From Micromonospora narathiwatensis (GTDB lineage Bacteria; Actinomycetota; Actinomycetes; Mycobacteriales; Micromonosporaceae), in the NCBI RefSeq assembly GCF_900089605.1, contig NZ_LT594324.1, forward strand, positions 496,001-560,000: a stretch of DNA of 64,000 bases, in the 5' to 3' direction. This document shows positions 38,243 through 63,182 of the stretch, piece after piece; the first letter of the stretch is position 1, and each line of letters starts with the position of its first letter. The notes beneath the pieces were generated by a model. The model did not search any database. It had not been told where the DNA came from and saw nothing but the letters and a program-made list of their open reading frames with translations. The position numbers and the translations under genes are program-made.

Positions 38243-38315
38243 GCGGACGTAGCGCAGCTGGTAGCGCATCACCTTGCCAAGGTGAGGGTCGCGGGTTCGA
38301 ATCCCGTCGTCCGCT
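38243..38315 (+). tRNA. tRNA-Gly (GCC), copy 1
   Basis: Cloverleaf with acceptor GCGGACG/CGTCCGC, anticodon loop TTGCCAA on a TCACC/GGTGA stem, and TTCGAAT T-loop. CCA is not encoded. Identical to the copy at 40956. Confidence 0.97.
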
Positions 38316-38349
38316 CGGAGATGCCGCCACGCATGTCGGGGGCACACTC

Positions 38350-38420
38350 GGTGGAGTGGCCGAGAGGCGAGGCAACGGCCTGCAAAGCCGTGTACACGGG
38401 TTCAAATCCCGTCTCCACCT
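38350..38420 (+). tRNA. tRNA-Cys (GCA)
   Basis: Acceptor GGTGGAG/CTCCACC, anticodon loop CTGCAAA on an ACGGC/GCCGT stem, TTCAAAT T-loop; 71 nt without encoded CCA. It has no second copy in the window. Confidence 0.96.
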
Positions 38421-38433
38421 CGGCAGTAGACGA

Positions 38434-38508
38434 GGGCGATTGGCGCAGTGGGAGCGCGCTTCCTTGACACGGAAGAGGTCACTGGTTCAAACCCAGTATC
38501 GCCCACCA
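38434..38508 (+). tRNA. tRNA-Val (GAC), copy 1
   Basis: Acceptor GGGCGAT/ATCGCCC, anticodon loop TTGACAC on a CTTCC/GGAAG stem, TTCAAAC T-loop, and CCA encoded at 38506-38508. Identical to the copy at 41087. Confidence 0.97.
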
Positions 38509-40955: not shown

Positions 40956-41028
40956 GCGGACGTAGCGCAGCTGGTAGCGCATCACCTTGCCAAGGTGAGG
41001 GTCGCGGGTTCGAATCCCGTCGTCCGCT
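40956..41028 (+). tRNA. tRNA-Gly (GCC), copy 2
   Basis: Base-for-base identical to the tRNA-Gly at 38243, with similar sequence just upstream. A TACAGT -10-like hexamer lies at 40919-40924. Confidence 0.97.
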
Positions 41029-41056
41029 CGCGATCCGCCCCTCGCGGGGCCGACCG

Positions 41057-41080
41057 TCGCCGGATTTTTCGATCCGGCGA
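41057..41080 (+). other. Hairpin between tRNA-Gly and tRNA-Val
   Basis: TCGCCGGAT (41057-41065) pairs with ATCCGGCGA (41072-41080) around ttttcg. It replaces the tRNA-Cys of the first cluster and may be a processing or partial termination element. Confidence 0.45.
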
Positions 41081-41086
41081 GCGCTC

Positions 41087-41161
41087 GGGCGATTGGCGCA
41101 GTGGGAGCGCGCTTCCTTGACACGGAAGAGGTCACTGGTTCAAACCCAGTATCGCCCACCA
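41087..41161 (+). tRNA. tRNA-Val (GAC), copy 2
   Basis: Identical to the tRNA-Val at 38434, including the encoded CCA (41159-41161). Confidence 0.97.
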
Positions 41162-46244: not shown

Positions 46245-47252
46245 ATGAGACTGCTGGTGCTGGGTGGGTCCGGATTCGTCGGTGGGGCCGTGGTGTCCGA
46301 GGGGGTACGGCGTGGCTGGTCGGTGACGGTGTTCAACCGGGGGCTGCACGGCGACGTGCCGGGGGGCGTACGCCGGTTGCGGGGGGACAGGACGGCGCCG
46401 GACGGGCTGACGGCGCTCGCCGGCGGTGCGTGGGACCTGGTGGTGGACACCTGGGACGGCGCGCCCCGGGCGGTGCGGGACGCCGCGCGGGCCCTGGCCG
46501 GTTCGGTGGGGCACTACGGCTACGTCTCCAGCGGCTCGGTCTACGGCGAACCGGTGGAGTTGGGCTCGGCCGAGGACGCGCCGGTCGTCGAGGCGTCGGC
46601 GGACGCGGTGGACGGCGACTATCCACAGCTCAAGGCGGGCGGGGAGCGGGCCGCAGTGGAGGTCTTCGGCGAGCGGGCGCTGCTGGCCCGCGCCGGGCTG
46701 ATCCTCGGGCCGGGCGAGGACATCGGACGACTGCCGTGGTGGTTGCGGCGGATCGCCCGGGGTGGCGAGGTGCTCGCGCCGGGGCCGCGGGACCTTCCGG
46801 TGCAGTACATCGACGTCCGGGACCTGGCGAGCTGGCTGCTGGATCGGTGTGCCGAGGGCACCGGCGGCGCGTACAACGTGGTGGGGCGCAGCGGGCACAC
46901 GACGATGGGTGAGCTGCTCGACGCGGCGCTCGCGGCCACCGGCGCGGACGCGGTGCTGCGCTGGACGGACCCGGAACCGATCCTGGCCGCGGGTGTCGAA
47001 CCCTGGAACGACCTGCCGATCTGGATCCCGGTCGGGCACGAGTACCGCTGGTTGCAGGAGCGGGGTGTCGAGCGGGCGTACGCGGCGGGGCTGGTCTGCC
47101 GGCCGGTGGCCGAGACGGTCGCCGACACCTGGCGCTGGCTGTGCGAGGTGGGTCAGGTGCCGCCCCGCGCCGGCCGGCCGGCCCGGGCCCCGGTGGGGCT
47201 CGACCCGGAACGCGAGGCGGAACTGCTGGCCGGCGTCGCCCGGCCGGCCTGA
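46245..47252 (+). CDS. NAD-dependent epimerase/dehydratase family protein (extended SDR)
   Basis: 335 aa. The N-terminal Rossmann motif is GGSGFVGG (8-15) immediately after MRLLVL. The SDR tyrosine region is atypical: SSGSVYGEP is present, but the usual YxxxK is replaced by YPQLKAGGE (Tyr-x-x-x-Lys retained as YPQLK). PVQYIDVRDLASW and YNVVGRSG are typical of the isoflavone-reductase/epimerase-like subgroup. The frame is open far upstream through the repeat tract, but the ATG at 46245 begins the conserved domain. Substrate unknown. Confidence 0.87.
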   Translation: MRLLVLGGSGFVGGAVVSEGVRRGWSVTVFNRGLHGDVPGGVRRLRGDRTAPDGLTALAGGAWDLVVDTWDGAPRAVRDAARALAGSVGHYGYVSSGSVYGEPVELGSAEDAPVVEASADAVDGDYPQLKAGGERAAVEVFGERALLARAGLILGPGEDIGRLPWWLRRIARGGEVLAPGPRDLPVQYIDVRDLASWLLDRCAEGTGGAYNVVGRSGHTTMGELLDAALAATGADAVLRWTDPEPILAAGVEPWNDLPIWIPVGHEYRWLQERGVERAYAAGLVCRPVAETVADTWRWLCEVGQVPPRAGRPARAPVGLDPEREAELLAGVARPA

Positions 47253-47287
47253 CCGGGCCCGGCCGCCGGGTAGCGGGACGGGCGGGC

Positions 47288-48262
47288 TCAGGCCGGCGCG
47301 ACCGGCACGTCGAGCACCTCCTCGACGGGGCGGCGCGGGGTGGTGGCGCCCGGCTGGCCGTATCCGATCCGCATCCCCATCTGCGGGGTGCCGAACCGGC
47401 CCAGGGAGAGCCGCAGCGCCTCCCGCGCCCCGGACACCTCGATCGGCTGGGAGATCATCGACACGGCCAGCCCGGCGTCGGTGGCCGTCAGCAGCACCCG
47501 TTGCAGGGCCTGGCCCGCGATGATCTGGTCGGTGGTGGTGTTCCCCGCCGATCCCAGCACCGCGACCAGCGGTTCCGGCTCGAAGTCCCGCCCCGGCCCT
47601 CGGTTGCGTCCCCCGAAGCCGCGCTGGGGCAGCAGGTCCTGCGGCTCGCCCTGCGGCCCGCCCGATGCGGTCGGCACGCCGTCGGGGGAGGGCTCGGAGC
47701 GGATCCAGGCGGCCCGCTCGGCCACGTACGCGGGGTCGCGTTCGAGGACCCGGTGGGCGCTGCGGGCGACCTCGGCGAACGCGTTGACCGCGCCGGTGCC
47801 GATCAGCAGCTCCAGCCAGCACTGCTCGGCCCGGGCGGCCTCGACGAGCCGCCACCGGGCGTCGGCGGGTACCGGGTCGGTCCAGAACGGGGCGCGGTTG
47901 CTGAACCGGCGGCCGATCGCCGCGTACAGGCTCTGCTCGGTGGGGGTGGGGCGGCGCGGCACGTCCGGTTCCAGCCGGGCCACCACGTTCGGGTCGGCGG
48001 GGTACGGGCGGAGCCGGACGGTGGCCGGGGTGCCCGCCACGGCGAGCGCCAGCCGCAGGTTGAACAGGGCGGCCCCGCAGGCGATCCGGGCGCCCCAACC
48101 GCTCGGGTCGGTGGCGGGGAGCCCGCGCAGCGGGTCGACGGAGACCTCGATCCCGCCGTCGCGCAGCCGGAACCGCCACGGCTGGGTGTTGTGCAGGGAC
48201 GGTGCCCGGACGGCGTCGGTGGCGGCGGCCGTCAGCTGCGCGACGGTGAAGCCGGTGTTCAT
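47288..48262 (-). CDS. Acg-type nitroreductase family protein 1
   Basis: 324 aa. The opening APSLHNTQPWRFRL is the signature of Acg (Rv2032)-like flavin nitroreductases, members of the DosR regulon in mycobacteria; GRRFSNRAPFW and a C-terminal MRIGYGQPG also fit. Acg itself sequesters FMN and may lack activity, so redox enzyme and flavin storage are both possible. It is divergent from devR with two DevR-like boxes between them, and GGAAGGAG precedes the ATG. Confidence 0.85.
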   Translation of the reverse strand: MNTGFTVAQLTAAATDAVRAPSLHNTQPWRFRLRDGGIEVSVDPLRGLPATDPSGWGARIACGAALFNLRLALAVAGTPATVRLRPYPADPNVVARLEPDVPRRPTPTEQSLYAAIGRRFSNRAPFWTDPVPADARWRLVEAARAEQCWLELLIGTGAVNAFAEVARSAHRVLERDPAYVAERAAWIRSEPSPDGVPTASGGPQGEPQDLLPQRGFGGRNRGPGRDFEPEPLVAVLGSAGNTTTDQIIAGQALQRVLLTATDAGLAVSMISQPIEVSGAREALRLSLGRFGTPQMGMRIGYGQPGATTPRRPVEEVLDVPVAPA

Positions 48263-48344
48263 GGTGCTGCTCCTTCCGTGGCCAGCGGCGCCGCCTCCCG
48301 GTCGGCTCCCTCCTACGGTGCGTCAACCGGGGGTTACCCGAGCA

Positions 48345-48358
48345 GGGCCCAAGGTCCC
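48345..48358. promoter_or_regulatory. DevR/DosR-box-like palindrome 1
   Basis: On the minus strand it reads GGGACCTTGGGCCC, matching the GGGAC...GNCCC core of DevR boxes. It lies 83 bp before the nitroreductase start. Confidence 0.7.
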
Positions 48359-48398
48359 CATCTCGGGGGGACCGTCTACCCGCCGCGCCGTCGCGGTC

Positions 48399-48412
48399 GG
48401 GACCTTCGGCCC
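48399..48412. promoter_or_regulatory. DevR/DosR-box-like palindrome 2
   Basis: GGGACCTTCGGCCC, again the GGGACC/GGCCC core, 37 bp before the devR start codon and well placed for autoregulation. Confidence 0.75.
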
Positions 48413-48448
48413 GTGCACGACCCCGCGGCGTCGGGGTAGAAAGGACGG

Positions 48449-49087
48449 ATGATCCGGGTGTTCCTGCTCGACGACCACGAGGTCGTCCGTCGTGGCCTTG
48501 CCGACCTGCTCACCAACAGCGGTGACATCGAGGTGGTCGGTGAGTCCGGCTCCGCCCAGGAGGCGTCCCGCCGCATCCCGGCGCTCCGCCCCGACGTGGC
48601 GATCCTCGACGCCCGGCTGCCCGACGGCAACGGCATCGACGTGTGCCGGGACATCCGGGCCGTGGACTCCTCGATCAAGGGCCTGATCCTCACCTCGTAC
48701 GAGGACGACGAGGCGCTCTTCGCCGCGATCATGGCCGGTGCCGCCGGGTACGTGCTCAAGCAGATCCGCGGCACCGACCTGGTCGACGCGGTCCGCCGGG
48801 TGGCGGCCGGGCAGTCCCTGCTTGACCCGGCGATCACCACCCGGGTGCTGGAGCGGATCCGCAGCGGGGTCGAGCAGCCGCGCGAGCTGAAGTCGCTCAC
48901 CGAGCAGGAACGGCGGATCCTGGAGTACGTGGCCGAGGGGCTCACCAACCGGGAGATCGCCGGCAAGATGTTCCTCGCCGAGAAGACCGTGAAGAACTAC
49001 GTCTCCAGCGTACTGGCCAAGCTCGGCCTGGAGCGGCGTACGCAGGCGGCGGTGCTGGCCACCCGGCTGCTCGGCCAGCGGCACTGA
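48449..49087 (+). CDS. devR: NarL-family response regulator, DevR/DosR-like
   Basis: 212 aa. It is close to mycobacterial DevR over its full length: VFLLDDHEVVRRGLADLL, phosphoacceptor Asp54 in AILDARLPDGNGI, LILTSYEDDEAL, and the C-terminal HTH with EGLTNREIAGKMFLAEKTVK and VLAKLGLERRTQAAV. In mycobacteria DevR turns on dormancy genes under hypoxia, NO or CO. An AAAGGA RBS precedes the ATG. It converges with devS on the opposite strand, an unusual orientation since the two are co-directional in Mycobacterium. Confidence 0.92.
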   Translation: MIRVFLLDDHEVVRRGLADLLTNSGDIEVVGESGSAQEASRRIPALRPDVAILDARLPDGNGIDVCRDIRAVDSSIKGLILTSYEDDEALFAAIMAGAAGYVLKQIRGTDLVDAVRRVAAGQSLLDPAITTRVLERIRSGVEQPRELKSLTEQERRILEYVAEGLTNREIAGKMFLAEKTVKNYVSSVLAKLGLERRTQAAVLATRLLGQRH

Positions 49088-49107
49088 CGGCATCGGTCCG
49101 CCGACGG

Positions 49108-49131
49108 CCGCCCGGCCCGGGATCCGGGCGG
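49108..49131. terminator. Hairpin between convergent devR and devS
   Basis: CCGCCCGG (49108-49115) pairs with CCGGGCGG (49124-49131) around an 8-nt loop, 20 bases beyond devR. Confidence 0.5.
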
Positions 49132-49156
49132 GCTGCCGCGCGCCGAGTCGGCCCGC

Positions 49157-50887
<1,731 letters not shown>

Positions 50888-50919
50888 CTATCGCCCGGTG
50901 GCGGTCGGAGACGAGCCCG

Positions 50920-51930
50920 CTACCGGCTCCCGCCGTGTGCCGCGGAGGTGTCGACGATCTCCTCGGTGGCCAGGCGCGGGGTGTGCGGGGGCCCCGCGTG
51001 CGCCGGGTCCGCGAGCCCCAGCCGCAGCGCCAGGTACGGGAAGCCGAGCCCGGCCAGCAGCCGGCGCACGGTCAGGCGGGTGCCTTCCACCTCCACCACG
51101 CCGCTGAGCGGCACCACGGAGACCCCGAGCCGGGTGGCGGTCAGCCAGGCGGACGAGAGCCCCTCACCGGCCCGTAGCCAGTTGTCCGGCTCGTCCTCGG
51201 TGCCCCAGAGGATCCCGTAGCGGGCGGCCCGGTCGTGCCCGGGACCGACCGGCAGGGTGCCGGGACGGCCGAAGTCCCGGCCCGGCACGGTGGTCTGCGG
51301 GGCCTGCTCGGGCAGCACCTCGGGCGGCAGCCCGGTGCCGGTGCCGGCCCGGCTGGTCCAGTACTCCAGTTCCTCGCGCGTCTGCGGGTCCTCGGCCGTG
51401 ACCGTGCCGGCCTGCGACGCCGCGGCGGCCAGATCCATCACCTGGTCCGGGTCGAGGAGCTGGAGCCGTATGCCGTCCGCGCGGGCCGCCCCGACGATCT
51501 CGTTGAGGGTCGCGTCCGGAACCGGCTCGTCGCTCACCGGCCGGCGGTCGGTGTGCCGGACCCGCATGCACTGCACGAGGCGCATCGCGTCCCGGTCCGC
51601 CCCGATGTGCCGGAACCCGGTGAGCCGGGCGAGGAATTCCGGCTGGCCCGGGTCGGGCATCCGCTCCACCGCCGCCGTCCAGCCCTCGGCGGCCAGCGCC
51701 ACGCACGCGTGGTGCAGCGCCGTGCCGCAGCTCAGCGTCACCAGCCGGCCCTCCGGGTCGGTGGCGGAGATCCGGGGGTCCCGCACCATCCGCAGCTCCA
51801 GCGCGTCGGGGAGGACCTTCCAACGCCACGGCTGGGTGTTGTGCACCGAAGGGGCACGACCGGACGTCGCGGCGGCCTCCGCGAGCGCGGTGGTCAGCGG
51901 GCGGTCCGTAGCCGTCGTCTCGTGGCTCAT
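50920..51930 (-). CDS. Acg-type nitroreductase family protein 2
   Basis: 336 aa. The ATG at 51930 has AAAGG upstream; the in-frame ATG at 51957 lacks a good RBS. APSVHNTQPWRWKVLP marks the Acg/nitroreductase subgroup, shared with the paralogue at 47288 although the two diverge elsewhere. MRVRHTDRRPVSDEPV and the GLGFPYLALRLG end also match. It lies upstream-adjacent to devS on the same strand but 41 bp after... its own stop precedes devS, so read-through into devS is not possible; transcription runs from this gene toward devS. It may be co-transcribed with devS. Confidence 0.84.
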   Translation of the reverse strand: MSHETTATDRPLTTALAEAAATSGRAPSVHNTQPWRWKVLPDALELRMVRDPRISATDPEGRLVTLSCGTALHHACVALAAEGWTAAVERMPDPGQPEFLARLTGFRHIGADRDAMRLVQCMRVRHTDRRPVSDEPVPDATLNEIVGAARADGIRLQLLDPDQVMDLAAAASQAGTVTAEDPQTREELEYWTSRAGTGTGLPPEVLPEQAPQTTVPGRDFGRPGTLPVGPGHDRAARYGILWGTEDEPDNWLRAGEGLSSAWLTATRLGVSVVPLSGVVEVEGTRLTVRRLLAGLGFPYLALRLGLADPAHAGPPHTPRLATEEIVDTSAAHGGSR

Positions 51931-52049
51931 CGTCACGACCTTTCCATTTTTCCCCATCGTGCCGCACCCCGGGCGGGTCCGGGTGGCGTTGCCTCACCAT
52001 CCTCTGCCACGCGGCGTCCGGTGGCACGGTGCCCCGGGCCCCCGTACCC

Positions 52050-52063
52050 GGGTCCTTCGACCC
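52050..52063. promoter_or_regulatory. DevR-box-like palindrome between nitroreductase 2 and P1B-5 ATPase
   Basis: GGGTCCTTCGACCC differs from box 2 (GGGACCTTCGGCCC) at two positions and keeps perfect outer arms. It lies 59 bp before the ATPase start in the divergent region. Confidence 0.6.
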
Positions 52064-52121
52064 GCGTCGGATTACCCGTGATGCCCTGCCCGGCGACGCG
52101 CCTCGCTGAGACGATCCGCAC

Positions 52122-54470
52122 GTGGATGCGGAACCGCGCGAGTGCGTACCCGAGCGGCCGGTGCGGCCGCGCCGGGTGGACTGGCGGGAGTGGGCGCCGC
52201 TCACCCTGCTCACCCTGGCCGTGCTGGCCGGCGCCGGGTTGTGGTTCGGCGGGCGGCGCGGCGTGGCCGAGCTGGTCTGGGCGGCGGTGACCCTGGTGGC
52301 GCTGCTGCCGGCCGCGTGGACCACCGTGCGGCAGCTGTGGCGCCGGCAGTTCGGCGTGGACGTGATCGCGGTGCTGGCGCTGGTCGGCGCGCTGCTGGTC
52401 CGGGAGTACCTGGCCGGCGCGGTGATCGCCGTGATGGTCGCCACCGGGCAGGGCCTGGAGGACTACGCGCAGCGCCGGGCCAGCCGGGACCTGCGGGCGC
52501 TGTTGGAACGCGCACCCCGGCAGGCCCGCCGGCGCACCCCCGACGGCGACATCGAGGTGGTGCCGCTGGACCGGGTGGCGGTGGGGGACCGGCTGGTGGT
52601 CGGTCCCGGTGACGTGGTGCCGGTGGACGGGACCGTCGAGGAGGCCGCGACGCTGGACGAGTCGGTGGTCACCGGCGAGTCGCAGTTGGTCACCCGCGCC
52701 GCGGGCGAGCAGGTGGCCAGCGGGGTGGTCAACGCCGGCGCGGGCTTCGGCCTGCGGGCCCGCAAGAGCGCGGCGGAGAGCACGTACGCCGGGATCGTCC
52801 GGCTCGCCGAGGAGGCGACCGCGCGCAAGGCCCCGATGGTCCGGCTGGCCGACCGGTACGCCGCCGCGTTCGTGCCGTTCACCCTGTTGGTGGCCGGGGT
52901 GGCCTGGGCGGTCTCCGGCGAGTTCCTGCGGGCGGTGGCGGTGCTGGTGGTGGCCACCCCCTGCCCGCTGCTGCTGGCCACCCCGATCGCCATCGTCTCC
53001 GGGCTGTCCCGGGTGGCCCGGCGCGGGGTGCTGGTCCGCGACGGCGGGTCGCTGGAACTGCTCGGCCGCGCCCGTACCCTGCTGATGGACAAGACCGGCA
53101 CGCTCACCGCCGGCCGGCCGCGCGCCGCCGAGACGGTGGTCGCGCCCGGCGGCGACCGGGACGAGGTGCTGCGGCTGGCCGCCTCCGTCGAGCAGCTCTC
53201 CCCGCACGTGCTGGCCGCCGCACTGGTGCGGCAGGCCCGCGCGCAGGGGCTGCGCCTGACCGAGCCGGCGGAGGTCACGGAGGAGCCGGGCCACGGGGTC
53301 ACCGGCCGGGTGGACGGCCGCCTGGTGCGGGTGGGCCAGCTCGCCGGCGAGCCCCCCGAGTGGGCGCACCGGGTACGCGAGCGCGCCGAGCTGGCCGGCC
53401 GTTCGACCGTCTGGGTCAGCGACGACCACGGTCCGCTCGGCGCGATCCTGCTGGAGGACCCGGTACGCCCCGACGCCCGGCGTACCGTGCGGCGGCTCCG
53501 CGAGAGCGGGCTGGACCGCCTGGTCATGGTCACCGGCGACCGCCCGCGTACGGCCCGGCAGGTCGCGCAGACGGTCGGCGTGGACGACGTCTGGGCCCAG
53601 TGCACGCCGCAGCAGAAGGTCGCCCGGGTGCAGGAGGAGTCCGGCCGGGCGGTGACCGTGATGGTCGGCGACGGCGTCAACGACGCACCGGCGCTGGCCG
53701 AGGCGCACGTCGGCGTGGCGATGGGCGCCACCGGGGCGACCGCCTCCGCCGACGTGGCCGACGCGGTGCTCACCGTGGACCGGCTGGACCGGCTCGCCGA
53801 CGCCGTCGAGATCGCCCGGTACGCCCGCCGCATCGCGGTGCAGAGCGCCACCGTCGGGATGGCGCTGGCCGTGGTGGCGATGGTGGCCGCCGCCGTGGGA
53901 AAACTGCCCCCGGTCGCCGGCGCGTTCCTCCAGGAGGGCATCGACGTGCTGGTGATCGTGAACGCGCTGCGCGCCCTGCGGGGCGGCCTGCGCCACCGGG
54001 ACGTCCCGCCGCGTACCCGGGAACTGCTCGACCGGTACGCGGGCGAGCACGACGGCGTCCGCGAGGTGCTGGACCGGCTGCGTGACACCGCCGACCTGAT
54101 GGCGACCCGCCCGGACGCGCCGGAGAGCCTACCGGCGTTGCGGGAGGTGCACCGCCGGCTGGTCGACGAGGTGCTGCCGCACGAGGCGGCCGAGGAACGG
54201 CATCTCTACCCGGCGCTGGCCGGCCCGCTGGGCAGCGGCGAGGCGACCTCGACGATGAGCCGGGCGCATGTGGAGATCGGCCGGTTGGTGGACCGGATCG
54301 GCGGCCACCTGGCCCAGCACCCGGACGGCCGGCTGCGTCGGGACGAGCTGCCCGACCTGCTCGCCGCCCTCTACGGCCTGGACGCGGTGCTGCGCCTGCA
54401 CATGGCCCAGGAAGAGGAGGACTACTTCTCGCTCAACCCGGAGGACGGACAGACCCCCGCCGGCCGGTGA
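52122..54470 (+). CDS. P1B-5-type metal ATPase with C-terminal hemerythrin-like domain
   Basis: 782 aa, GTG start. The ATPase core has the transmembrane TPCP motif (Cys281), phosphorylation site DKTGT with Asp323, TGES, MVTGDRPRTA and GDGVNDAP, with paired helices at both ends. No N-terminal metal-binding domain is present. TPCP defines the P1B-5 group, whose members export Ni or Fe and carry a C-terminal hemerythrin domain. Here that domain spans about 670-775 with His677, His687, Glu691 and His694, a later SRAHVEI and LHMAQEEEDYF, enough ligands for a di-iron O2-binding site. It fits an O2-responsive metal exporter in the DevRS context. Confidence 0.9.
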   Translation: MDAEPRECVPERPVRPRRVDWREWAPLTLLTLAVLAGAGLWFGGRRGVAELVWAAVTLVALLPAAWTTVRQLWRRQFGVDVIAVLALVGALLVREYLAGAVIAVMVATGQGLEDYAQRRASRDLRALLERAPRQARRRTPDGDIEVVPLDRVAVGDRLVVGPGDVVPVDGTVEEAATLDESVVTGESQLVTRAAGEQVASGVVNAGAGFGLRARKSAAESTYAGIVRLAEEATARKAPMVRLADRYAAAFVPFTLLVAGVAWAVSGEFLRAVAVLVVATPCPLLLATPIAIVSGLSRVARRGVLVRDGGSLELLGRARTLLMDKTGTLTAGRPRAAETVVAPGGDRDEVLRLAASVEQLSPHVLAAALVRQARAQGLRLTEPAEVTEEPGHGVTGRVDGRLVRVGQLAGEPPEWAHRVRERAELAGRSTVWVSDDHGPLGAILLEDPVRPDARRTVRRLRESGLDRLVMVTGDRPRTARQVAQTVGVDDVWAQCTPQQKVARVQEESGRAVTVMVGDGVNDAPALAEAHVGVAMGATGATASADVADAVLTVDRLDRLADAVEIARYARRIAVQSATVGMALAVVAMVAAAVGKLPPVAGAFLQEGIDVLVIVNALRALRGGLRHRDVPPRTRELLDRYAGEHDGVREVLDRLRDTADLMATRPDAPESLPALREVHRRLVDEVLPHEAAEERHLYPALAGPLGSGEATSTMSRAHVEIGRLVDRIGGHLAQHPDGRLRRDELPDLLAALYGLDAVLRLHMAQEEEDYFSLNPEDGQTPAGR

Positions 54471-54515
54471 CCGAGCCCCGGTGGCGTGACCGAGCGTCAC
54501 GGGCCGGGCGCTTCC

Positions 54516-54535
54516 CCCGCGGAACGGTCCGCGGG
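54516..54535. terminator. Hairpin between P1B-5 ATPase and universal stress gene
   Basis: CCCGCGGA (54516-54523) pairs with TCCGCGGG (54528-54535), 4-nt loop, between convergent stops. Confidence 0.55.
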
Positions 54536-54536
54536 C

Positions 54537-55394
54537 TCAGCGTTCCCGGACCACCGCGACGGGGCAGTGCGAGTGGTTGATGAGCTGCTGGCTGACCGAG
54601 CCGAGCAGCATGCCGCGCAGCCCGCCCCGGCCCCGGCTGCCGACCACCACGAGCTGCGCCTCGCGGCTCGCCTCGACCAGCAGCGCCGCCGGGTTGCCCT
54701 GGGTCACCCGGACCTCGATCGGCACGTCCGGGAAGCTCTTCCGCCACTGGGCCAGGTCCTGGTCGACCGCCGCCCGTTCGGTGTCGCCCGGGTCGGCGCC
54801 GGGCGGCACCTGCCGCTCCCCGGACGGCCCCCAGACCCGGAGCACCCACAGCGGGACGTCCCGCTGGGCGGCCCGCTCGACGGCGAAGCCGAGGGCCAGC
54901 AGCGAGGACTCGGAGCCGTCCACGCCGACCACCACCGGCCCGGAGGTGGCCGGCCGCCCGTCGCGTACCACGACCACCGGGCAGTGCGCGTGGGCGGCGA
55001 CGGAGACCGCGGTGGAGCCGGCGAGGAGGCCGCCGAAACCGCCGTGTCCCCGGCTGCCGAGCACCAGCATCCCCGCCTCGGTCGAGCGCTCCTGCAACAC
55101 CAGGGCGGGCGGTCCGTCGAAGACCTCGCCGTGCACGGTGAGGCCGGGCCGGTCGGCCGCGGCATTCGCCGCCGCCGACCGAACCAGCTCCTCGACCTGC
55201 CGCCGGGCGGTCTCGTCCGGCCAGATGCCCGGCGCCACCCCGGGACCGACCCAGCCGGCCACCGTCAGCCACTCGAAGACGTACGCCAGCCGGACCGGCC
55301 GGCCCGAGCGGCCCGCCTCGTCCAGCGCCCAGTTCAGGGCCACCTTGGCGTCGGTCGAGCCGTCGTAGCCGACCAGGATCTGGTCCCCGCTCAC
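54537..55394 (-). CDS. Two-domain universal stress protein (downstream of phosphoketolase)
   Basis: 285 aa, two tandem Usp domains. Each ends with an ATP-binding signature: [18 protein letters not shown] and [18 protein letters not shown] (G-x2-G-x9-G-S/T). The opening [13 protein letters not shown] is typical. The GTG overlaps the phosphoketolase stop (GTGA), so it is the second gene of that operon. Usp genes of this tandem type are frequent DosR-regulon members in mycobacteria. Confidence 0.9.
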
Positions 55395-57793
55395 CCGTCG
55401 CTCCGCAGGCCCTGCTCGGTCTCGCGGATCCACCGCCACTCGGCGACCCGGGGATCGTCCTCGCCGTACCGGCGGGTGTAGTCGCGGCAGGACTGCCGGA
55501 CGTCGATCATCTCCTGGCGCAGGTGCGCGGCGCGCGAGGCGAGCCCCGGCACCCGGTCGATGACGTCGATGACCAGGTGGAAGCGGTCCAGGTCGTTGAG
55601 CATCACCATGTCGAACGGCGTGGTGGTGGTGCCCTCCTCCTTGTATCCGCGGACGTGCAGGTTGTCGTGGTTGGTCCGGCGGTAGGTGAGCCGGTGGATC
55701 AGCCACGGGTAGCCGTGGTAGGCGAAGATGATCGGCTTGTCGCGGGTGAAGATGGTGTCGAACTCGTTGTCCGGCAGGCCGTGCGGGTGCTCCGACGGCG
55801 GTTGCAGGCGCATCAGGTCGACCACGTTGACCACCCGGACCTTCAGCTCGGGCAGGTGCTGGCGGAGCAGGTCGGCGGCGGCCAGGGTCTCCAGCGTCGG
55901 CACGTCGCCGGCGCAGGCGAGCACCACGTCCGGCTCGCTGCCGTCGTCGCTGCTGGCCCAGTCCCAGATGCCCAGGCCGCGCCGGGCGTGCTGGATCGCC
56001 TCGTCCATGCTGAGCCAGTTCGGCGCCGGCTGCTTCCCGGCCACCACCACGTTGATGTAGTGCCGGCTGCGCAGGCAGTGGTCCATGGTGGAGAGCAGGG
56101 TGTTGGCGTCCGGCGGCAGATAGACCCGGACCACCTCGGCCTTCTTGTTGACCACGTGGTCGATGAAGCCCGGGTCCTGGTGCGAGAAGCCGTTGTGGTC
56201 CTGCCGCCAGACGTGGCTGGAGAGCAGGTAGTTCAGCGAGGCCACCGGCTCCCGCCAGGGGATGCGCCGGGTCACCTTGAGCCACTTGGCGTGCTGGTTG
56301 ACCATCGAGTCGACGATGTGGATGAACGCCTCGTAGCTGGTGAAGATGCCGTGCCGGCCGGTCAGCAGGTAACCCTCCAGCCAACCCTGGCACAGGTGCT
56401 CCGACAGCACCTCCATCACCCGGCCGTCGGGGGCGAGGTGGTCGTCGCCGGGGACCGTGTCGCCGACGAAGGCGCGGTCGGTGACCTCGAAGGCGGCGCC
56501 GAGCCGGTTCGACGCGACCTCGTCCGGGCCGAACAGGCGGAAGGTCTGCGGGTTACGGCTGATCACGTCGCGGACCCACGGGCCGAGTGCGCCGGTCGCC
56601 CCGGCGATCGGCTCGCCCGGCTGCTGGACGTCGACCGCGTAGTCGCGGAAGTCGGGCAGATCCAGGTCGCGGAGCAGCCGCCCGCCGTTGGCCACCGGGT
56701 TGGCGCTCATCCGCCGGTCGCCCCTGGGCGGCAGGGCGACCAGCTCGGCGACCGGGCCGCCGGTGGCGTCGAAGAGTTCCTCCGGCCGGTAGCTGCGCAG
56801 CCAGCGCTCCAGCTCGGCCAGGTGCTCGGGGTTGCTCCGCACCTGGTCGACGGGCACCTGGTGGGCGCGGAAGGTCCCCTCGACCGGCTTGCCGTCGACC
56901 TCCTTCGGGCCGGTCCAGCCCTTCGGCGTACGCAGGATGATCATGGGCCAGCGGGGACGCTCGACGGGGCCACCGGAACGGGCCCGGCGCTGGATCGCGG
57001 CGATCTCGTCGACCGCCCGGTCCAGGGCCGCGGCGAGGCTCTGGTGGACCACGGCCGGGTCGTCGCCCTCGACGAGATACGGCTGGTGGCCGTAGCCGCG
57101 CATCAGGTCGAGCAGTTCCTCGGTGGGGATCCGGGCCAGGACGGTGGGGTTGGCGATCTTGTAGCCGTTGAGGTGCAGGACGGGCAGCACCGCCCCGTCC
57201 CGCGCCGGGTTGAGGAACACGTTGGACAGCCAGCTACCGGCCAGCGGGCCGGTCTCCGCCTCGCCGTCGCCGATCACGCAGGCGACCAGCAGGTCCGGGT
57301 TGTCGAACGCGGCACCGTAGGCGTGGCTGAGCGCGTACCCCAGCTCGCCGCCCTCGTGGATCGAGCCGGGCACCTCCGGCGCCACATGGCTGGGGATGCC
57401 ACCGGGGAAGGAGAACTGGCGGAACAGCCGGGCCAGGCCGGTCTCGTCCCGGGTCACCGAATGGTAGAGCTCGCTGTACGTACCCTCCAGCCAGGTGTTC
57501 GCCACCAGCGCGGGGCCACCGTGGCCCGGGCCGGTGACGAAGATGGCGGACAGGTCCCGGTCGACGATGACCCGGTTGAGGTGCGCGTAGAGCAGGTTGA
57601 GGCCGGGGCTGGTGCCCCAGTGCCCCAGCAGCCGTGGCTTGACGTGCTCCGGCCGCAGCGGTTCACGCAGCAGCGGATTGTCGAGCAAATAGATCTGCCC
57701 GACGGTGAGGTAGTTGGCCGCCCGCCAGTAGGCGTCAAGCCGGCGCAGCTCGTCTTCGGTCAGGGGGCTGTGCAGGTCGAGAGCGGTGTCCAT
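55391..57793 (-). CDS. xfp: Xylulose-5-phosphate/fructose-6-phosphate phosphoketolase
   Basis: 800 aa, full-length XFP. Family motifs: [15 protein letters not shown] and [18 protein letters not shown] near the N-terminus, ThDP-binding [12 protein letters not shown] and AGSWLSNVF, and a C-terminal [17 protein letters not shown]. It cleaves xylulose-5-P (and F6P) with phosphate to acetyl-phosphate, giving acetyl-P/ATP without oxidation, useful when respiration is limited. ATG at 57793 starts the conserved domain. The palindrome at 57837 and a half-site-like GGGACTTCTGCC at 57818 lie upstream. Confidence 0.95.
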
Positions 57794-57836
57794 GCTGCAA
57801 TAGCCTCTCGCGGATCGGGGACTTCTGCCACCCTGA

Positions 57837-57850
57837 GGCGGATATCCGCC
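57837..57850. promoter_or_regulatory. Perfect palindrome upstream of phosphoketolase gene
   Basis: GGCGGATATCCGCC is a loop-less 14-bp palindrome in the 125-bp gap upstream of xfp, so it is more likely a protein-binding site than a terminator. The regulator is unknown. Confidence 0.4.
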
Positions 57851-57918
57851 CGGGCAGGTCCAGCCTCGCGCTTCCGCCGCGAATCCGGTCAGGGCCGTTG
57901 GTCCCGGACGTGCGGGCG

Positions 57919-58749
57919 TCATGGCCGCTCCACGCCTGCCGGTCCGAGTCCACGGACGACGATCACCGGCGCCGGCGAATGGTAGAGCAGCGTCTGGCTG
58001 ACCGCGCCCAACATGCCCCGCAGCGGTTCCTCGCCCCGCGCCGCGACCACGGCGAGCTGCGCCGAGCGCGACTGTTCGACCAGGACGTTGCCCGGGTCGC
58101 CGCGCAGCGTGTGGCACTCTGCGGCAACGGTGGGGTGCCGGGCGCCGTGCCGGGCCACCGCCTCGGCGAGCAGGTCGCCGCCGTCGTCGTGGCGGCCGGG
58201 CTCGACGACCCGGATCGCGAGCAGCCGGGCCCCGCGCCCGTCCGCGCAGTCGAAGGCGTAACCGAGGGCCGTGTCGCCGGCCGCCGATCCGTCCACGCCG
58301 ACCAGCACCGGCCCCTGCGGCGCCGGCTCGGCCCGGCCCACCAGCACCGGGCAGCCGGCCCGGGCGGCGAGCTGCACGGCCGGGGCGTCGGACGGTACGC
58401 AGGTCGGGCAGGTGGCGATCCCGCCGTCGCCGAGCGCCACCAGGTACGCCGATTCGGCGGCCCGGAGCAGCGCCTCGACCGGGGCGCCCTCGACGATCTC
58501 GCCGCGTACCGGGACCTCCGGCTCGGCCTCGACGGCCACCCGCTCGGCGCGTTCCAGCAGGTCCTCGGCGGCGGCGCGCGACCCGGCCATCGAGGGCTCC
58601 TGAAGGGCCACCGCCCAGTTGAAGGCGTGCAGCAGGTGCAGTGGACGGTCGTGCGCGGCGGCCTCCCCGGCGGCCGTGCGGACCACCTGTAGGTCCTCCT
58701 CCGAGCCGCCGATGCCGACCACCACCGCGTCGTTGGTGGGCGTGGCCAT
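57919..58749 (-). CDS. Two-domain universal stress protein (upstream of phosphoketolase)
   Basis: 276 aa, two Usp domains. The second has the VDGS opening and [18 protein letters not shown] near the end; the first keeps [12 protein letters not shown] but its ATP signature is degenerate (around [10 protein letters not shown], with a CPTC pair that the other Usp protein lacks). It may therefore bind nucleotide at one site only, and the CPTC motif could be redox-active or metal-binding. It lies 125 bp upstream of xfp on the same strand. Confidence 0.88.
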
Positions 58750-58841
58750 CCCGCCTCACCTCCCGACCGCGCTCTCCTCACCCACCGTAGTCGGGGGTAC
58801 GCCCCCGTGGACCGAGACGGCCGAACCGCTGCCGGCGGTGG

Positions 58842-59642
58842 TCAGCGGGGAGTGGGGACGGTGGGGTGCACGCGGACCATCACGGCGGTGGCGTTGTCGT
58901 CGCCGCCCTCGTCCAGCGTGGCGGAGAGCAGTGCCTCGACGGTCCGCGCCGGGTCCCGCCGGGCGGCCAGCAGGTCCCGTAGCCGGTGGTAGCCGAGCTG
59001 GTCGCTCACCCCGTCGGTGCAGAGCAGCCAGGTGTCGCCGGTGCGCAACGGTACGGCCAGCACGTCCGGCTCGGGCTTGTCCGGGTGGCCGACGTAGCGC
59101 AGCAGCTGGTAGCGGGCCCGGGCCGCCTCCGGTGAGGTCGCCGGCCACCAGCCGTGCAGCACGCCGAGCCAGGCCATGGTGTGGTCGACCGTCATCAGTT
59201 CCAGCAGCCCGTCGCGCAGCCGGTACGCCCGCGAGTCGCCGAGCTGGACCAGCCAGCCCTGCCCGCCGTCGGGCTCCCCGACCAGGGCGGTCAGCGTGCA
59301 GCCGGTCAGACCGGTCAGCGCCGCCCCGGCCTGGCGTACCCGGAGCTGGGTCTCGGTGGTGGCGGCGCGCAGCTCGCGGGCGCCGACGGCCGGCCAGCCG
59401 GCGCGGACCTCCGCGACGAACGTGCTCATCGCGGTGGCGCCGGCGACCCGGCTGCCCTCCCCGTCGCCCATCCCGTCGGCGACCGCGACGAGCGGCAGTT
59501 CGGGGTCGACGTGCAGCACGTCGAAGTTCTCCGGGTAACGGTGCCCCACCACGCTGCCGCCGGCGATCTCCAGGGTGAGCCGCCCGACGGCCAGCCGACG
59601 GGTGGCGTCGACGGGTCGGTCCAGCGAGCGGCGGCGGAACAC
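58842..59642 (-). CDS. PP2C-family serine/threonine protein phosphatase
   Basis: 266 aa. Metal-binding motifs: AVADGMGDGEGSRVAG with Asp56 and Gly57, LVQLGDSRAYRL, LCTDGVSDQLG and GGDDNATAVMV. It should dephosphorylate Ser/Thr-phosphorylated proteins in the cytosol; no transmembrane segment is seen. The GTG at 59642 is a guess, since the frame stays open upstream and no clear RBS is present; other internal GTG starts are possible. Divergent from the lipid kinase gene. Confidence 0.86.
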   Translation of the reverse strand: MFRRRSLDRPVDATRRLAVGRLTLEIAGGSVVGHRYPENFDVLHVDPELPLVAVADGMGDGEGSRVAGATAMSTFVAEVRAGWPAVGARELRAATTETQLRVRQAGAALTGLTGCTLTALVGEPDGGQGWLVQLGDSRAYRLRDGLLELMTVDHTMAWLGVLHGWWPATSPEAARARYQLLRYVGHPDKPEPDVLAVPLRTGDTWLLCTDGVSDQLGYHRLRDLLAARRDPARTVEALLSATLDEGGDDNATAVMVRVHPTVPTPR

Positions 59643-59795
59643 CAGCGGACGGTAACACCGGCCGGGGCCCGTCGCGGGCCGGTCGCCGTCGTGTCGGGCC
59701 GGGCGGTGTCGCCGGCGGGGAAACCTGGTCGCGGTCGACGCGACATCGGTCGCCGTCGAGTCGCCGACCGGTCGCGGCTGCCGCACACTGGCGGC

Positions 59796-60785
59796 GTGGA
59801 CGGTGCAGACGACGAACGCCCGGCGCCGCGTTGCGCCGTGGTGGTGAACCCGGTGAAGGTGGCCGACCTCGACGGGTTCCGCCGGACGGTGAACGACGCT
59901 CTCGCCGCGGCCGGCTGGCCGGAGCCGGTCTGGTACGAGACCACCGTCGAGGACCCCGGCCTCGGCCAGACCCGGGAGGCGGTAGGGGCCGGCGCCGAGA
60001 TCGTCCTCGCCTGTGGCGGCGACGGCACGGTGCGGGCCTGCGTGACCGCGCTCGCCGGCACCGACGTGGCGCTCGCCGTGCTGCCCCTGGGCACCGGCAA
60101 CCTGCTCGCCGCCAACCTCGGCCTCCGCGACGACCTGGCCGCCGGGCTGGAGGTCGCCGTCGAGCGTGGTACGCGGCGGCTCGACGTCGGCGCGGTCGGC
60201 GACCAGTGTTTCGCCGTGATGGCCGGGATGGGCTTCGACGCGCAGCTGCTCGACGGCACCTCCGAGCGGACCAAGCGGCGGCTCGGCTGGCCGGCGTACC
60301 TGGTGGGGGCCGTGCGGCACCTGCGGGACCGGCCGATGCGGGTCAGCGTCCGGATCGACGACCGGCCGCCGCTGCGCCGGCGGGCCCGCTCGGTCCTGGT
60401 CGCCAACGTCGGCCGGCTCCAGGGCGGCGTACGCCTGCTCGCCGACGCGGAGCCGGACGACGGCTGGCTCGACGTGGCGGTGCTGACCCCGCGTACGCTC
60501 GGTCACTGGCTGGCGATGGCGTGGGCGCTGCTGGGCCGGCGTGGCCGGGTGCCCCGGATGGAGCTGTTCCGGGCCCGCCGGGTCGAGATCGTCAGTGACC
60601 GGGCCCAGCCCCGGGAACTCGACGGGGACCTGATCGAGCCGGGCCGGTCGCTGACCGCCGAGATCCGGCCCGGGGCGCTGTGGCTGTGCGTACCGAGGCC
60701 GGAGCGCGACCCCGATCTGGCGGTGGACGCCGACGCGGCGGCCGAGCGCGGCGCGCGTCTGGTCGAGGAGGCCCGGCACGAGTAG
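59796..60785 (+). CDS. Diacylglycerol kinase family lipid kinase
   Basis: 329 aa, GTG at 59796. DAGK-catalytic motifs: nucleotide-binding CGGDGTVRAC at 73-82, PLGTGNLLAANLGL, and the C-terminal LDGDLIEPG-like phosphate contact. Members phosphorylate diacylglycerol, undecaprenol-like or sphingoid lipids. Together with the downstream double PAP2 phosphatase it could form a lipid phosphorylation/dephosphorylation pair. Confidence 0.88.
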   Translation: MDGADDERPAPRCAVVVNPVKVADLDGFRRTVNDALAAAGWPEPVWYETTVEDPGLGQTREAVGAGAEIVLACGGDGTVRACVTALAGTDVALAVLPLGTGNLLAANLGLRDDLAAGLEVAVERGTRRLDVGAVGDQCFAVMAGMGFDAQLLDGTSERTKRRLGWPAYLVGAVRHLRDRPMRVSVRIDDRPPLRRRARSVLVANVGRLQGGVRLLADAEPDDGWLDVAVLTPRTLGHWLAMAWALLGRRGRVPRMELFRARRVEIVSDRAQPRELDGDLIEPGRSLTAEIRPGALWLCVPRPERDPDLAVDADAAAERGARLVEEARHE

Positions 60786-60901
60786 CACCAGCCCGGTCCC
60801 CGCGGCCGGTGGGACGGCCGTGCGCTGACGAGCTGCCGCCCGCGGCGTGTACGCGGCCCGCGAATCGGGTACAGCGCGCCTCGCAGACAAGGAGGTGCGG
60901 G

Positions 60902-62368
60902 GTGACGATCACGCGACGGCCGCTCGGCCATTTCGCGGGGCGCAGCGTCGCGGGGCTGCTCGCCGTCGCCGGTGCGGGGGTTGGTTTCGGCGTCCTGCTC
61001 ATGCTCGTCCGGCTCCACTGGGGCCCGCTCCACCACGCCGACCGCGAGGCGGCGGAGTGGTTCAACGCCCTGGTGGCCCCGCACCACGCGCTGGTCACCG
61101 TGCTCAAGGCGATCACCGACCTGGGCGGGCGGCCGGTGCTGATCTGGCTGGTCACCATCGCGGTGGTGGGCCTGCTCATCCGCCGCCAGCCCCGGCTGGC
61201 GGTCTATCTGGTCATCACCGGGGTCGGCGGGCTGATCCTCGACCCGTCGCTGAAGGCACTGGTCGGCCGGCTCCGCCCGGTCGTCGACGTACCGATCACC
61301 CACGCTCCCGGCAACAGCTTCCCCAGCGGGCACGCGCTCGGCTCGTTCGTCGCGTACGGGGCGCTGCTGCTGGTCTTCCTGCCGGCCGTGGCGCCGCGCC
61401 GACGTCGGCCGGCCGTCGCCGCCGTCGCCGTGCTGGTGTTCCTGATCGGGCTGACCCGGATCGCGCTGGGCGTGCACTTCGTCTCCGACGTGCTCGCCGG
61501 CTGGCTGCTCGGGGTGGCCTGGCTCGGCGTCACCGCGTACGCCTTCCGGCTGTGGCGTCGCGAGCGCGGCCGGCCGGTGCCGCCGATCGGCGAGGGCCTG
61601 GAGCCGGAGGCGGGCGAGGAGATCGCCCCCGCGCCGGCCGAGGAGCACGTGCTGGAGCACCCCCGCTCGTCCGTCGCCGAGCTGCTGGTCGGCTGGGTGC
61701 TCGTCCTCGGCGTCCTCTACGGCTTCGGCATGTTCGTCAGCTACCACGCCGAGGGCACGTTCCTCGACACCCTCGACACCGCGGTGCCGCGGTGGTTCGC
61801 GGCCCGGCGTACCGCCTCGCTCGACGAGCTGAGCTGGTGGTGGAGCAAGTTCGGCGACACCCACGCCATCCTGCTGGTCGCGCTGGTCTTCTGCCCACTG
61901 GTGGTGGCCGTCGGGAAGCGCTGGCGGCCGGTGCTCTTCGTGGTGCTGGCGATGTTCGGCGAGCTGAGCCTCTTCCTCGTCACCGCCCGGTTGGTCGAGC
62001 GGCCCCGCCCGCCGGTGGAAAACCTGGACGGCCGCCTGCCGACCTCGTCCTTCCCGTCCGGGCACATCGCGGCCACCATCTGTCTGTGGAGCGCGATGGC
62101 GATCATCGTGGTCGCCCGGACCGACCGCTGGTGGCGGTGGCTCTTCGTGGCCCTGGCCGTGCTCATGCCGGTCGGGGTGGCCATCTCCCGGATCTACCGG
62201 GGCATGCACCACCCGACCGATTTCGTGGGCGCGATCCTGCTCGGCGTCCTCTGGGTCGGTCTGCTCTGGTGGGTGGTCCGCCCCAACGCCGACCTGCCCG
62301 CCGGCAGCCGGCCGGCCGTCGAGCCGGCGCAGGCGCGCGAGCCGGCCAGGGCCGGCCGCGAGGATTGA
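60902..62368 (+). CDS. Tandem PAP2 lipid phosphatase (two complete catalytic domains)
   Basis: 488 aa, GTG at 60902 with a perfect AAGGAGGT RBS. Two PAP2 domains are fused. Domain 1 has KALVGRLRP (118-126), PSGH (141-144) and TRIALGVHFVSD (His192). Domain 2 has ARLVERPRPP, FPSGH and SRIYRGMHHPTD. Both keep the Lys/Arg, Ser-Gly-His and His-Asp triad, so both should be active. About twelve membrane helices are predicted, with a charged cytoplasmic linker (LEPEAGEEIAPAPAEEH). PAP2 enzymes dephosphorylate lipid phosphates such as undecaprenyl-PP or PA. Next gene 10 bp downstream. Confidence 0.9.
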   Translation: MTITRRPLGHFAGRSVAGLLAVAGAGVGFGVLLMLVRLHWGPLHHADREAAEWFNALVAPHHALVTVLKAITDLGGRPVLIWLVTIAVVGLLIRRQPRLAVYLVITGVGGLILDPSLKALVGRLRPVVDVPITHAPGNSFPSGHALGSFVAYGALLLVFLPAVAPRRRRPAVAAVAVLVFLIGLTRIALGVHFVSDVLAGWLLGVAWLGVTAYAFRLWRRERGRPVPPIGEGLEPEAGEEIAPAPAEEHVLEHPRSSVAELLVGWVLVLGVLYGFGMFVSYHAEGTFLDTLDTAVPRWFAARRTASLDELSWWWSKFGDTHAILLVALVFCPLVVAVGKRWRPVLFVVLAMFGELSLFLVTARLVERPRPPVENLDGRLPTSSFPSGHIAATICLWSAMAIIVVARTDRWWRWLFVALAVLMPVGVAISRIYRGMHHPTDFVGAILLGVLWVGLLWWVVRPNADLPAGSRPAVEPAQAREPARAGRED

Positions 62369-62378
62369 GCGGGCGCCG

Positions 62379-63182
62379 ATGCTGCGGGTGATGACCTGGA
62401 ACATCCTGACCGGTGGACGGGACCGGGACGGCACCGACCGGTGGGACCGGATCGTCGCGGTCGTCGCCGCGCAGCGCCCCGACCTACTGGCCGTTCAGGA
62501 GTTGCGCGGCCTCGACCGCGGCGGCCGGCTGGCGGAGCTGGCCGGCCGGCTGGGCATGACGCCGCACCTGGCCCGCTCCTGGTTCGGGCAGCCGGTCGCG
62601 GTGCTGGTCCGCGCGCCGCTGCGGGCGCTCCGCTCCGGCCGGGTACGCCGCCCGTTCCACCACGCCACCGCCCAGGTCCAGGTGGCCACCGGAGCCGGTC
62701 CGCTGACCGTGTTCAGCACCCACCTGAATCCGTACTCGGGTGGGCAGCGGCGGATGGAGGCGGACTGGCTGGCGGTGGCGGTCGGGCGTACCGGGGGTCG
62801 GCTGGCCCTGCTCGCCGGGGACCTGAACACGCTCGACCCGGCCGTCGACCACACCGCGCGGCTGGCCGGCCTGCCCACCCTCTACCGGCGGCGGCACCTG
62901 CGTCGGGACGGCCGTACCGTCGACACCCGCGCGGTGTCCCGACTGCTCGACGCCGGCCTGGTCGACCTCTGGCCGTACACCGGTGGCGGCGAGCCGGACG
63001 GGCCGACCGTGCCGACCCGGTACGGCGGTGCGGAGTTCGCCCCGACGCGCCTGGACTACCTGCTCGCCACCCCGGAGGTGGCCGCCGTGACCCGCGCGGT
63101 CCGGGTGGTCCGGGGCGGCGGCGCCGACACCGCCTCCGACCACTATCCGGTCGTCGCCGACCTGGCGCTGGACCCCGGCTGA
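62379..63182 (+). CDS. Endonuclease/exonuclease/phosphatase (EEP) family hydrolase
   Basis: 267 aa. EEP motifs are present: MTWNILTGG with Asn, VQELRG with Glu, STHLNPY with His, LLAGDLNTLDP with Asp/Asn, and the terminal SDHYPVVADL with Asp-His. These build the DNase I-like two-metal site. The substrate may be a phosphodiester or an inositol-/phospholipid. It is 10 bp after the PAP2 gene, likely one operon, which favours a lipid or headgroup role over DNA repair; this is inference. Confidence 0.86.
   Translation: MLRVMTWNILTGGRDRDGTDRWDRIVAVVAAQRPDLLAVQELRGLDRGGRLAELAGRLGMTPHLARSWFGQPVAVLVRAPLRALRSGRVRRPFHHATAQVQVATGAGPLTVFSTHLNPYSGGQRRMEADWLAVAVGRTGGRLALLAGDLNTLDPAVDHTARLAGLPTLYRRRHLRRDGRTVDTRAVSRLLDAGLVDLWPYTGGGEPDGPTVPTRYGGAEFAPTRLDYLLATPEVAAVTRAVRVVRGGGADTASDHYPVVADLALDPG

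Follow-up and report, generated by a model that had tools for sequence, protein, structure and literature searches.

A window of 64,000 nucleotides from Micromonospora narathiwatensis (positions 496001–560000 of a 6.61-Mb single-contig genome) carries, between 46245 and 63182, a response regulator gene, devR, and a sensor kinase gene, devS, of the type known from the DevRS (DosRS) dormancy system. They are accompanied by two Acg-type oxidoreductase genes, a P1B-type ATPase gene with a hemerythrin domain, universal stress protein (Usp) genes, a phosphoketolase gene and a set of short DNA sites, the Dev boxes. The first-pass annotation of this DNA had described the region as a compact hypoxia or nitric oxide (NO) response locus, and every gene that it named is present according to gene calls and family scans.

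The devR–devS locus

The central genes and sites, in window coordinates, are the following (no strand is assigned to the boxes).
47288–48262, minus strand: acg1, Acg/Rv3131-family FMN oxidoreductase (NF047509, 310.8 bits)
48345–48358: Dev box 1, GGGCCCAAGGTCCC, on the acg1 side
48368–48381: candidate secondary site, a degenerate box that lies 23 nt from box 1 and deviates from the core at one position
48399–48412: Dev box 2, GGGACCTTCGGCCC, 50 nt before the devR ATG
48437–48442, plus strand: TAGAAA, putative −10 hexamer for leaderless transcription of devR
48449–49087, plus strand: 212-aa response regulator of the NarL type, devR/osdR orthologue
49157–50878, minus strand: devS/dosT/osdK orthologue, 573 aa, with predicted heme ligand H148, Y170, G86 and phosphoacceptor H391
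50920–51957, minus strand: acg2, Acg/Rv3131-family FMN oxidoreductase (NF047509, 264.1 bits), located 5′ of devS in the same orientation
52028–52041: candidate secondary site, a degenerate box 22 nt away from box 3, with another one-mismatch site at 52036
52050–52063: Dev box 3, GGGTCCTTCGACCC, between the divergent acg2–devS pair and the ATPase gene
52161–54470, plus strand: P1B-type ATPase with TPC motif, DKTGT and C-terminal hemerythrin domain (PF00122, PF00702, PF01814); start at 52122 or 52161
54537–55394, minus strand: usp1, two-domain universal stress protein (PF00582), its start overlapping the xfp stop
55391–57793, minus strand: xfp, phosphoketolase (XFP_N/XFP/XFP_C; NF003619, 1478 bits)
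57892–57905: Dev box 4, GGGCCGTTGGTCCC, before the xfp–usp1 pair

The Acg assignments rest on the curated NF047509 cut-off of 199 bits, and acg1 and acg2 encode the only two proteins of the genome above it. Conservation was followed in 80 related loci found through matches to the kinase, which is up to 92% identical over its full length to other Micromonospora proteins, and the core GGGNCNNNNGNCCC was scanned wherever the position of a gene start was clear. As controls for these scans we used the coding sequence that precedes usp1 and usp2; for genome-wide counts, the control was a reversed motif.

Response regulator and kinase

DevR has its best solved match in the DevR structure 3c3w (E 9.4e-73; 121 of 209 residues identical) and keeps D54, T82, K104, K179, K182 and N183. 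Sequence characters of the DevR/OsdR class are found: a NarL-type receiver with a LuxR-type helix-turn-helix domain, the phosphoacceptor Asp54, the three DNA-contact residues (K179, K182 and N183, whose role is described in PMC5999986), and Dev boxes at its own promoter and at Acg, Usp and Hsp20 genes.

The kinase has the GAF-GAF-HisKA_3-HATPase architecture of DevS and DosT by family scan, and its best solved matches are the GAF-A domains of these two proteins (best E 8.7e-54), with 61% of the compared residues identical to DosT and 54% to DevS. The predicted heme-ligand histidine falls at position 148 of the 573-aa protein, in agreement with the first pass. An alignment of the window kinase with those of the related loci, from which one truncated sequence (L068) was excluded to leave 79 of 80, shows this proximal His148, the distal Tyr170 of the DevS/DosT-type GAF-A heme site and a glycine (Gly86) at the position of DevS Glu87 in all 80 sequences. 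Seven GAF-A residues consistently separate DosS from DosT, according to the comparison given in PMC4082495; the window kinase has the DosT residue at five of them and neither residue at two, so that Glu87 and the other DosS-specific residues of the redox-type DevS subclass are found at none of the seven. The position of DosS Val108, where the window kinase has the DosT residue, is occupied by His in 73/80 sequences. The genome encodes one close homologue, the second of 18 matches scoring 71.5 bits vs 1229.4.

Because the pocket is DosT-like, with Gly86 in place of DevS Glu87, we predict that the kinase is a single DosT-like O2 sensor that would bind heme. The same two-component system could instead respond mainly to redox state or NO, as DevS may do: DevS has been debated as a redox sensor and binds both NO and CO (PMC4082495), and Acg-type oxidoreductases adjoin the kinase gene here. 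The invariant glycine and the lack of DosS-type residues at the seven positions make such a sensor unlikely, although a caution in that review is that there is dispute over what Glu87 does.

Dev boxes and the devR promoter

The three boxes proposed at first pass, at 48345, 48399 and 52050, are real sites, and related genomes keep them. The region between acg1 and devR contains a perfect core in 56/56 loci and is no longer than 400 nt in 51 of them. For acg2, a perfect core is no more than 400 nt away in 46/73 loci, some of which are distant and have different neighbouring genes. A fourth box, overlooked at first pass, stands at 57892, and its reverse complement is an exact fit to the motif GGGACC-N3-GGCCC proposed there; usp2, the PP2C phosphatase gene and the lipid genes have no box. 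Before xfp, a perfect core is present in 43/51 loci. In the control coding stretches, a perfect core was found before usp1 in 3/53 cases and before usp2 in 1/47.

At devR, the box starts 49–50 nt 5′ of the start codon in 51/51 loci (49 perfect, two with one mismatch), a position that is fixed although devR and acg1 are anywhere between 176 and 1382 nt apart. At −12 to −7, the same 51/51 loci have the hexamer TAGAAA. The sequence that follows it up to the start codon is variable, and by our reading a ribosome site at a suitable spacing is often missing; the simplest account is a leaderless transcript with the box centred near −43, and devR is probably a leaderless, self-activated gene. Many related regions have a second, degenerate box 22–24 nt away, an arrangement that resembles the primary and secondary sites of M. 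tuberculosis, where DevR binding is cooperative (PMC3029386). At acg1 and acg2, the tandem boxes blur the register of the −10 elements.

The ATPase with a hemerythrin tail

The ATPase that diverges from acg2–devS carries its transmembrane TPC motif at residue 266 and a C-terminal tail that passes the hemerythrin family PF01814; TPC is a mark of the P1B-5 class. P1B-5 ATPases with a C-terminal hemerythrin domain are already known from Acidothermus and as Nia of Sinorhizobium (PMC9388753), and the window ATPase differs from these known cases in its divergence from acg2–devS with a Dev box between. Among 47 Micromonospora-group loci in which both flanks are available, the ATPase has the tail in 21, lacks it in 14 and is missing altogether in 12, and the gene looks like an accessory target. 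These states are seen among the loci L014–L066, tailless forms occurring for example in L040, L043 and L061, and loci without the gene including L017 and L035.

Orientation of devR and devS

The convergent orientation of devR and devS had been singled out at first pass as unlike mycobacteria. That difference stands, and the arrangement is not a peculiarity: the 80 family loci comprise 59 convergent pairs, 13 divergent pairs (some with intervening genes) and eight loci without a devR of more than 80% identity. A class-wide survey of the 29 best-scoring loci found both genes at 13, of which 11 are convergent (one from this genus) and two tandem, and no DevR match within reach at the other 16.

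Predicted targets elsewhere in the genome

The pattern GGGHCSWWSGDCCC occurs at 17 genome sites, four of them within 9.6 kb at the locus. Out-of-window sites were read for their gene context, with the exception of 6337425, and six query proteins were then searched in 25 genomes of the genus (24 further genomes and the window's own).

Site 964726 lies between a Usp gene pair and hsp20 and is kept in three of four hsp20 loci. About 4.7 kb beyond it, a perfect core precedes ppdK, the gene for pyruvate phosphate dikinase (PPDK); it came to light when this part of the genome was scanned and stands outside the list of 17. Close ppdK orthologues, present in 10/25 genomes, have a perfect core in 9/10 cases, with perfect sites at −99 to −112, and 26 other matches of at most 71% identity, which are paralogues, have it in 0/14 of the regions fetched. 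A gene for a CBS-BON protein keeps its box in 15/16 loci from 12 genomes. A less certain case is a Rieske/metallo-beta-lactamase gene similar to Rv3818, the gene of the O2-using UDP-MurNAc hydroxylase; it has a perfect box at −149 to −152 in 9/24 loci.

As a chance-site control, the site at proS (5391467) was followed in the same way and gave a perfect core in 3/22 loci, at three different positions; lacking conservation among the 22 loci, it was rejected as a target. Further genome sites not taken as targets are 11795, 20825, 287022, 796231 (coding), 1488583, 5314783 (coding), 5368785 and 6337425.

Two side observations concern these genes. A small protein with a cyclic-nucleotide-binding domain is encoded directly behind hsp20 (L110:10275–10745), and Crp-like genes are among the entries of the OsdR site table in PMC5069765. 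The Rv3818-like gene, of Rieske/SCP2 type, occupies L111:10036–11562 with a box-like site at L111:9885–9898, and lies at about 237885 in the window's own genome.

The locus could also belong to a general stationary-phase or development regulon, in part as has been proposed for OsdR, with O2 not being the physiological signal. The checked heme-pocket residues are kept, however, and the sites that were followed lie at metabolic, redox and stress genes, so we consider this improbable.

A predicted acetate module

Phosphoketolase produces acetyl phosphate, and the acetate kinase gene, ackA, was for this reason sought in the genome. It lies at 4386076, directly behind the pta frame, and the region upstream of pta holds one of the 17 GGGHCSWWSGDCCC sites, 4383946. 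The pta start was set 12 nt further upstream, at a GTG or ATG that all 24 loci under comparison share, an additional locus having too little sequence to be included. Counted from there, a box is found at −49/−50 in 16/24 promoters (12 perfect, four with one mismatch), and 23/24 have a hexamer of the TAG or TAA kind at −12 or −13. The devR and pta promoters are thus alike in box position and in a TA-type hexamer at about −12, a geometry that resembles M. tuberculosis targets whose proximal box overlaps the −35 region (PMC3029386). Phosphoketolase, Pta and AckA would form an acetyl-phosphate/ATP module in the predicted regulon.

Acetyl phosphate has been used to phosphorylate both OsdR (PMC5069765) and DevR (PMC3029386) in vitro, and a feedback loop on DevR is therefore possible. 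The corresponding closed circuit, in which DevR~P would activate phosphoketolase and Pta-AckA, these would set the acetyl-phosphate pool, and acetyl phosphate would in turn phosphorylate DevR, is a tentative and rather doubtful proposal.

Chance sites and counter-evidence

Several observations weigh against a DevR regulon of this extent. Genome-wide motif counts are scarcely above those of the reversed controls (nine sites vs six for GGGMCSWWSGKCCC and 17 vs nine for GGGHCSWWSGDCCC), which suggests that some sites are due to chance. No perfect core is present in 27/73 acg2 regions or in 8/51 xfp regions, the latter including the three Salinispora loci, and at the cut-offs used the hsp20 orthologue is found in only 4/25 genomes and the CBS gene in 12/25. 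Eight of the 24 pta promoters have no box at −49/−50, and seven of these eight keep the TA-type hexamer, which is thus independent of the box; the promoter can work without DevR, and its control by DevR would be lineage-dependent. In the open-licence PMC literature, control of acetate genes by DevR was not found. Searches of the same literature for phosphoketolase with DosR and hypoxia gave matches off topic by title, those for acetate kinase with DosR, fermentation and hypoxia gave titles mostly on protein acetylation, and phosphoketolase with universal stress protein, nitroreductase and Streptomyces gave nothing; for Micromonospora with DevR, DosR or hypoxia, the genus was named, twice, only in a protein-modification review among the matches listed.

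In the extreme case, the stress genes would be neighbours by accident and the boxes nothing but GC-rich chance sequence. A perfect core is expected in about 7.5% of 260-nt stretches at 73% GC, a looser box pattern gives six matches in the window alone vs about 7.6 expected, and the genome counts just mentioned point the same way. The fixed position across the genus, the contrast between ppdK orthologues and paralogues and the invariant hexamer nevertheless make this account extremely improbable. For the four GGGHCSWWSGDCCC sites within 9.6 kb, a rough Poisson estimate gives P 1.5e-8 for a stretch that was picked post hoc. The argument for the boxes is carried by position and conservation; counts alone are weak evidence.

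Relation to known systems and proposed mechanism

A DevRS-type locus outside the mycobacteria, as announced at first pass, is real and not new: OsdK/OsdR (SCO0203/SCO0204) of Streptomyces coelicolor is a DevRS orthologue and a precedent (PMC5069765). It is the nearest known system, so that the kind of system is known, and the regulon predicted here differs in its acetyl-phosphate link. According to PMC5069765, the OsdR box is AGGGCCGATCGGCCCT, which we count as common to both systems, and the OsdR targets include osdR itself, a nitroreductase gene, Usp genes and pyruvate phosphate dikinase, as do the targets predicted here; the dikinase site is predicted at −102 for OsdR vs −99 to −112 in Micromonospora, and the core CGGGACCTTCGGCCC of window box 2 appears in the site table at SCO5979. 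The same source describes osdR–osdK as an operon, in contrast to the convergent genes of the window; its site table has a separate hemerythrin gene and nitrate reductase, and holds no phosphoketolase, Pta, AckA or P1B ATPase.

Orthology, heme and DNA-contact residues, paired boxes and a proximal box near −35 are also shared with DevR-DevS/DosT of M. tuberculosis, which has two kinases where the window genome has one close homologue, DosT-like. In M. tuberculosis, devRS forms an operon with Rv3134c, and the DevR targets include Acg/Rv3131, Usp, hspX-like hsp20 and CBS-type genes, like those predicted in this genome.

The gene identities, residues, boxes, conservation and promoter geometry observed here are very probably best explained if the pair is orthologous to DevRS/OsdKR, the two-component system that senses oxygen. 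An O2-responsive DevRS-type locus appears well supported by orthology, the heme pocket, the DNA-contact residues, the conserved boxes and the sites outside the window at hsp20/usp, ppdK and CBS genes, and from it heme binding, response to O2, DNA binding, the direction of control, the operons and the metabolic role would follow as predictions. O2 on the GAF-A heme, with His148 as ligand, Tyr170 as the discriminating residue and an open DosT-like channel with Gly86, would keep the kinase off; upon loss of O2 the kinase would be switched on, and DevR~P would bind the Dev boxes. From the box centred near −43, DevR~P would activate devR itself as a leaderless mRNA. Local targets by box would be acg1, the acg2–devS pair with the divergent P1B-hemerythrin ATPase, and xfp–usp1, and targets elsewhere would be the Usp and hsp20 genes, ppdK, the CBS-BON gene and pta–ackA. 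With devR and devS under separate Dev-box promoters, two positive loops would arise. The output would be a low-oxygen survival programme in which the phosphoketolase, Pta-AckA and PPDK reactions replace respiratory ATP.

Neighbouring genes and other features

The remaining genes of the 46245–63182 block are the following.
46245–47252, plus strand: NAD-dependent epimerase-like protein, flanking gene (PF01370)
57919–58749, minus strand: usp2 (PF00582), without a box of its own
58842–59660, minus strand: PP2C-type phosphatase (PF13672, 9.9e-12), scanned frame with approximate start, without box
59838–60785, plus strand: diacylglycerol-kinase-like protein (PF00781, PF19279), neighbour without box
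60902–62368, plus strand: double PAP2 protein (PF01569), neighbour without box
62379–63182, plus strand: endonuclease/exonuclease/phosphatase (PF03372), neighbour without box

The epimerase start at 46245 was correctly called at first pass, its ATG opening the Rossmann motif in frame, and the upstream side of this gene holds one-mismatch sites only and no perfect box. No box with zero or one mismatch lies upstream of usp2 or of the PP2C, diacylglycerol kinase, PAP2 and exo/endonuclease genes. The idea of a compact block thus holds in so far as a DevRS-type locus with boxes is present; the boxless genes rule out the whole block as a single regulon, and the lipid enzymes count as neighbours and not as shown targets.

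Elsewhere in the window, repeated tRNA sets are found (Gly-Cys-Val at 38243–38508, and Gly-Val again at 40956–41161), and a protein of 1998 aa is predicted in 22623–28619, a stretch with strong positive AT skew.

Significance

To our knowledge, how aerobic, filamentous, antibiotic-producing actinomycetes survive the loss of oxygen is poorly known. A genus from soil that has a single DosT-like kinase, one locus-borne DevR orthologue and targets marked by phylogenetic footprints would offer a simple model of the dormancy switch, and the link that we predict with phosphoketolase, acetate kinase and PPDK provides a concrete candidate for the energy source of the non-growing state. Metabolic feedback on the regulator is a further possibility, one that could be studied without a pathogen. 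If the closed circuit were true, a heme kinase would sense low O2 and central carbon flux would hold or end the response, so that the dormancy switch would sustain itself through metabolism and yield ATP.

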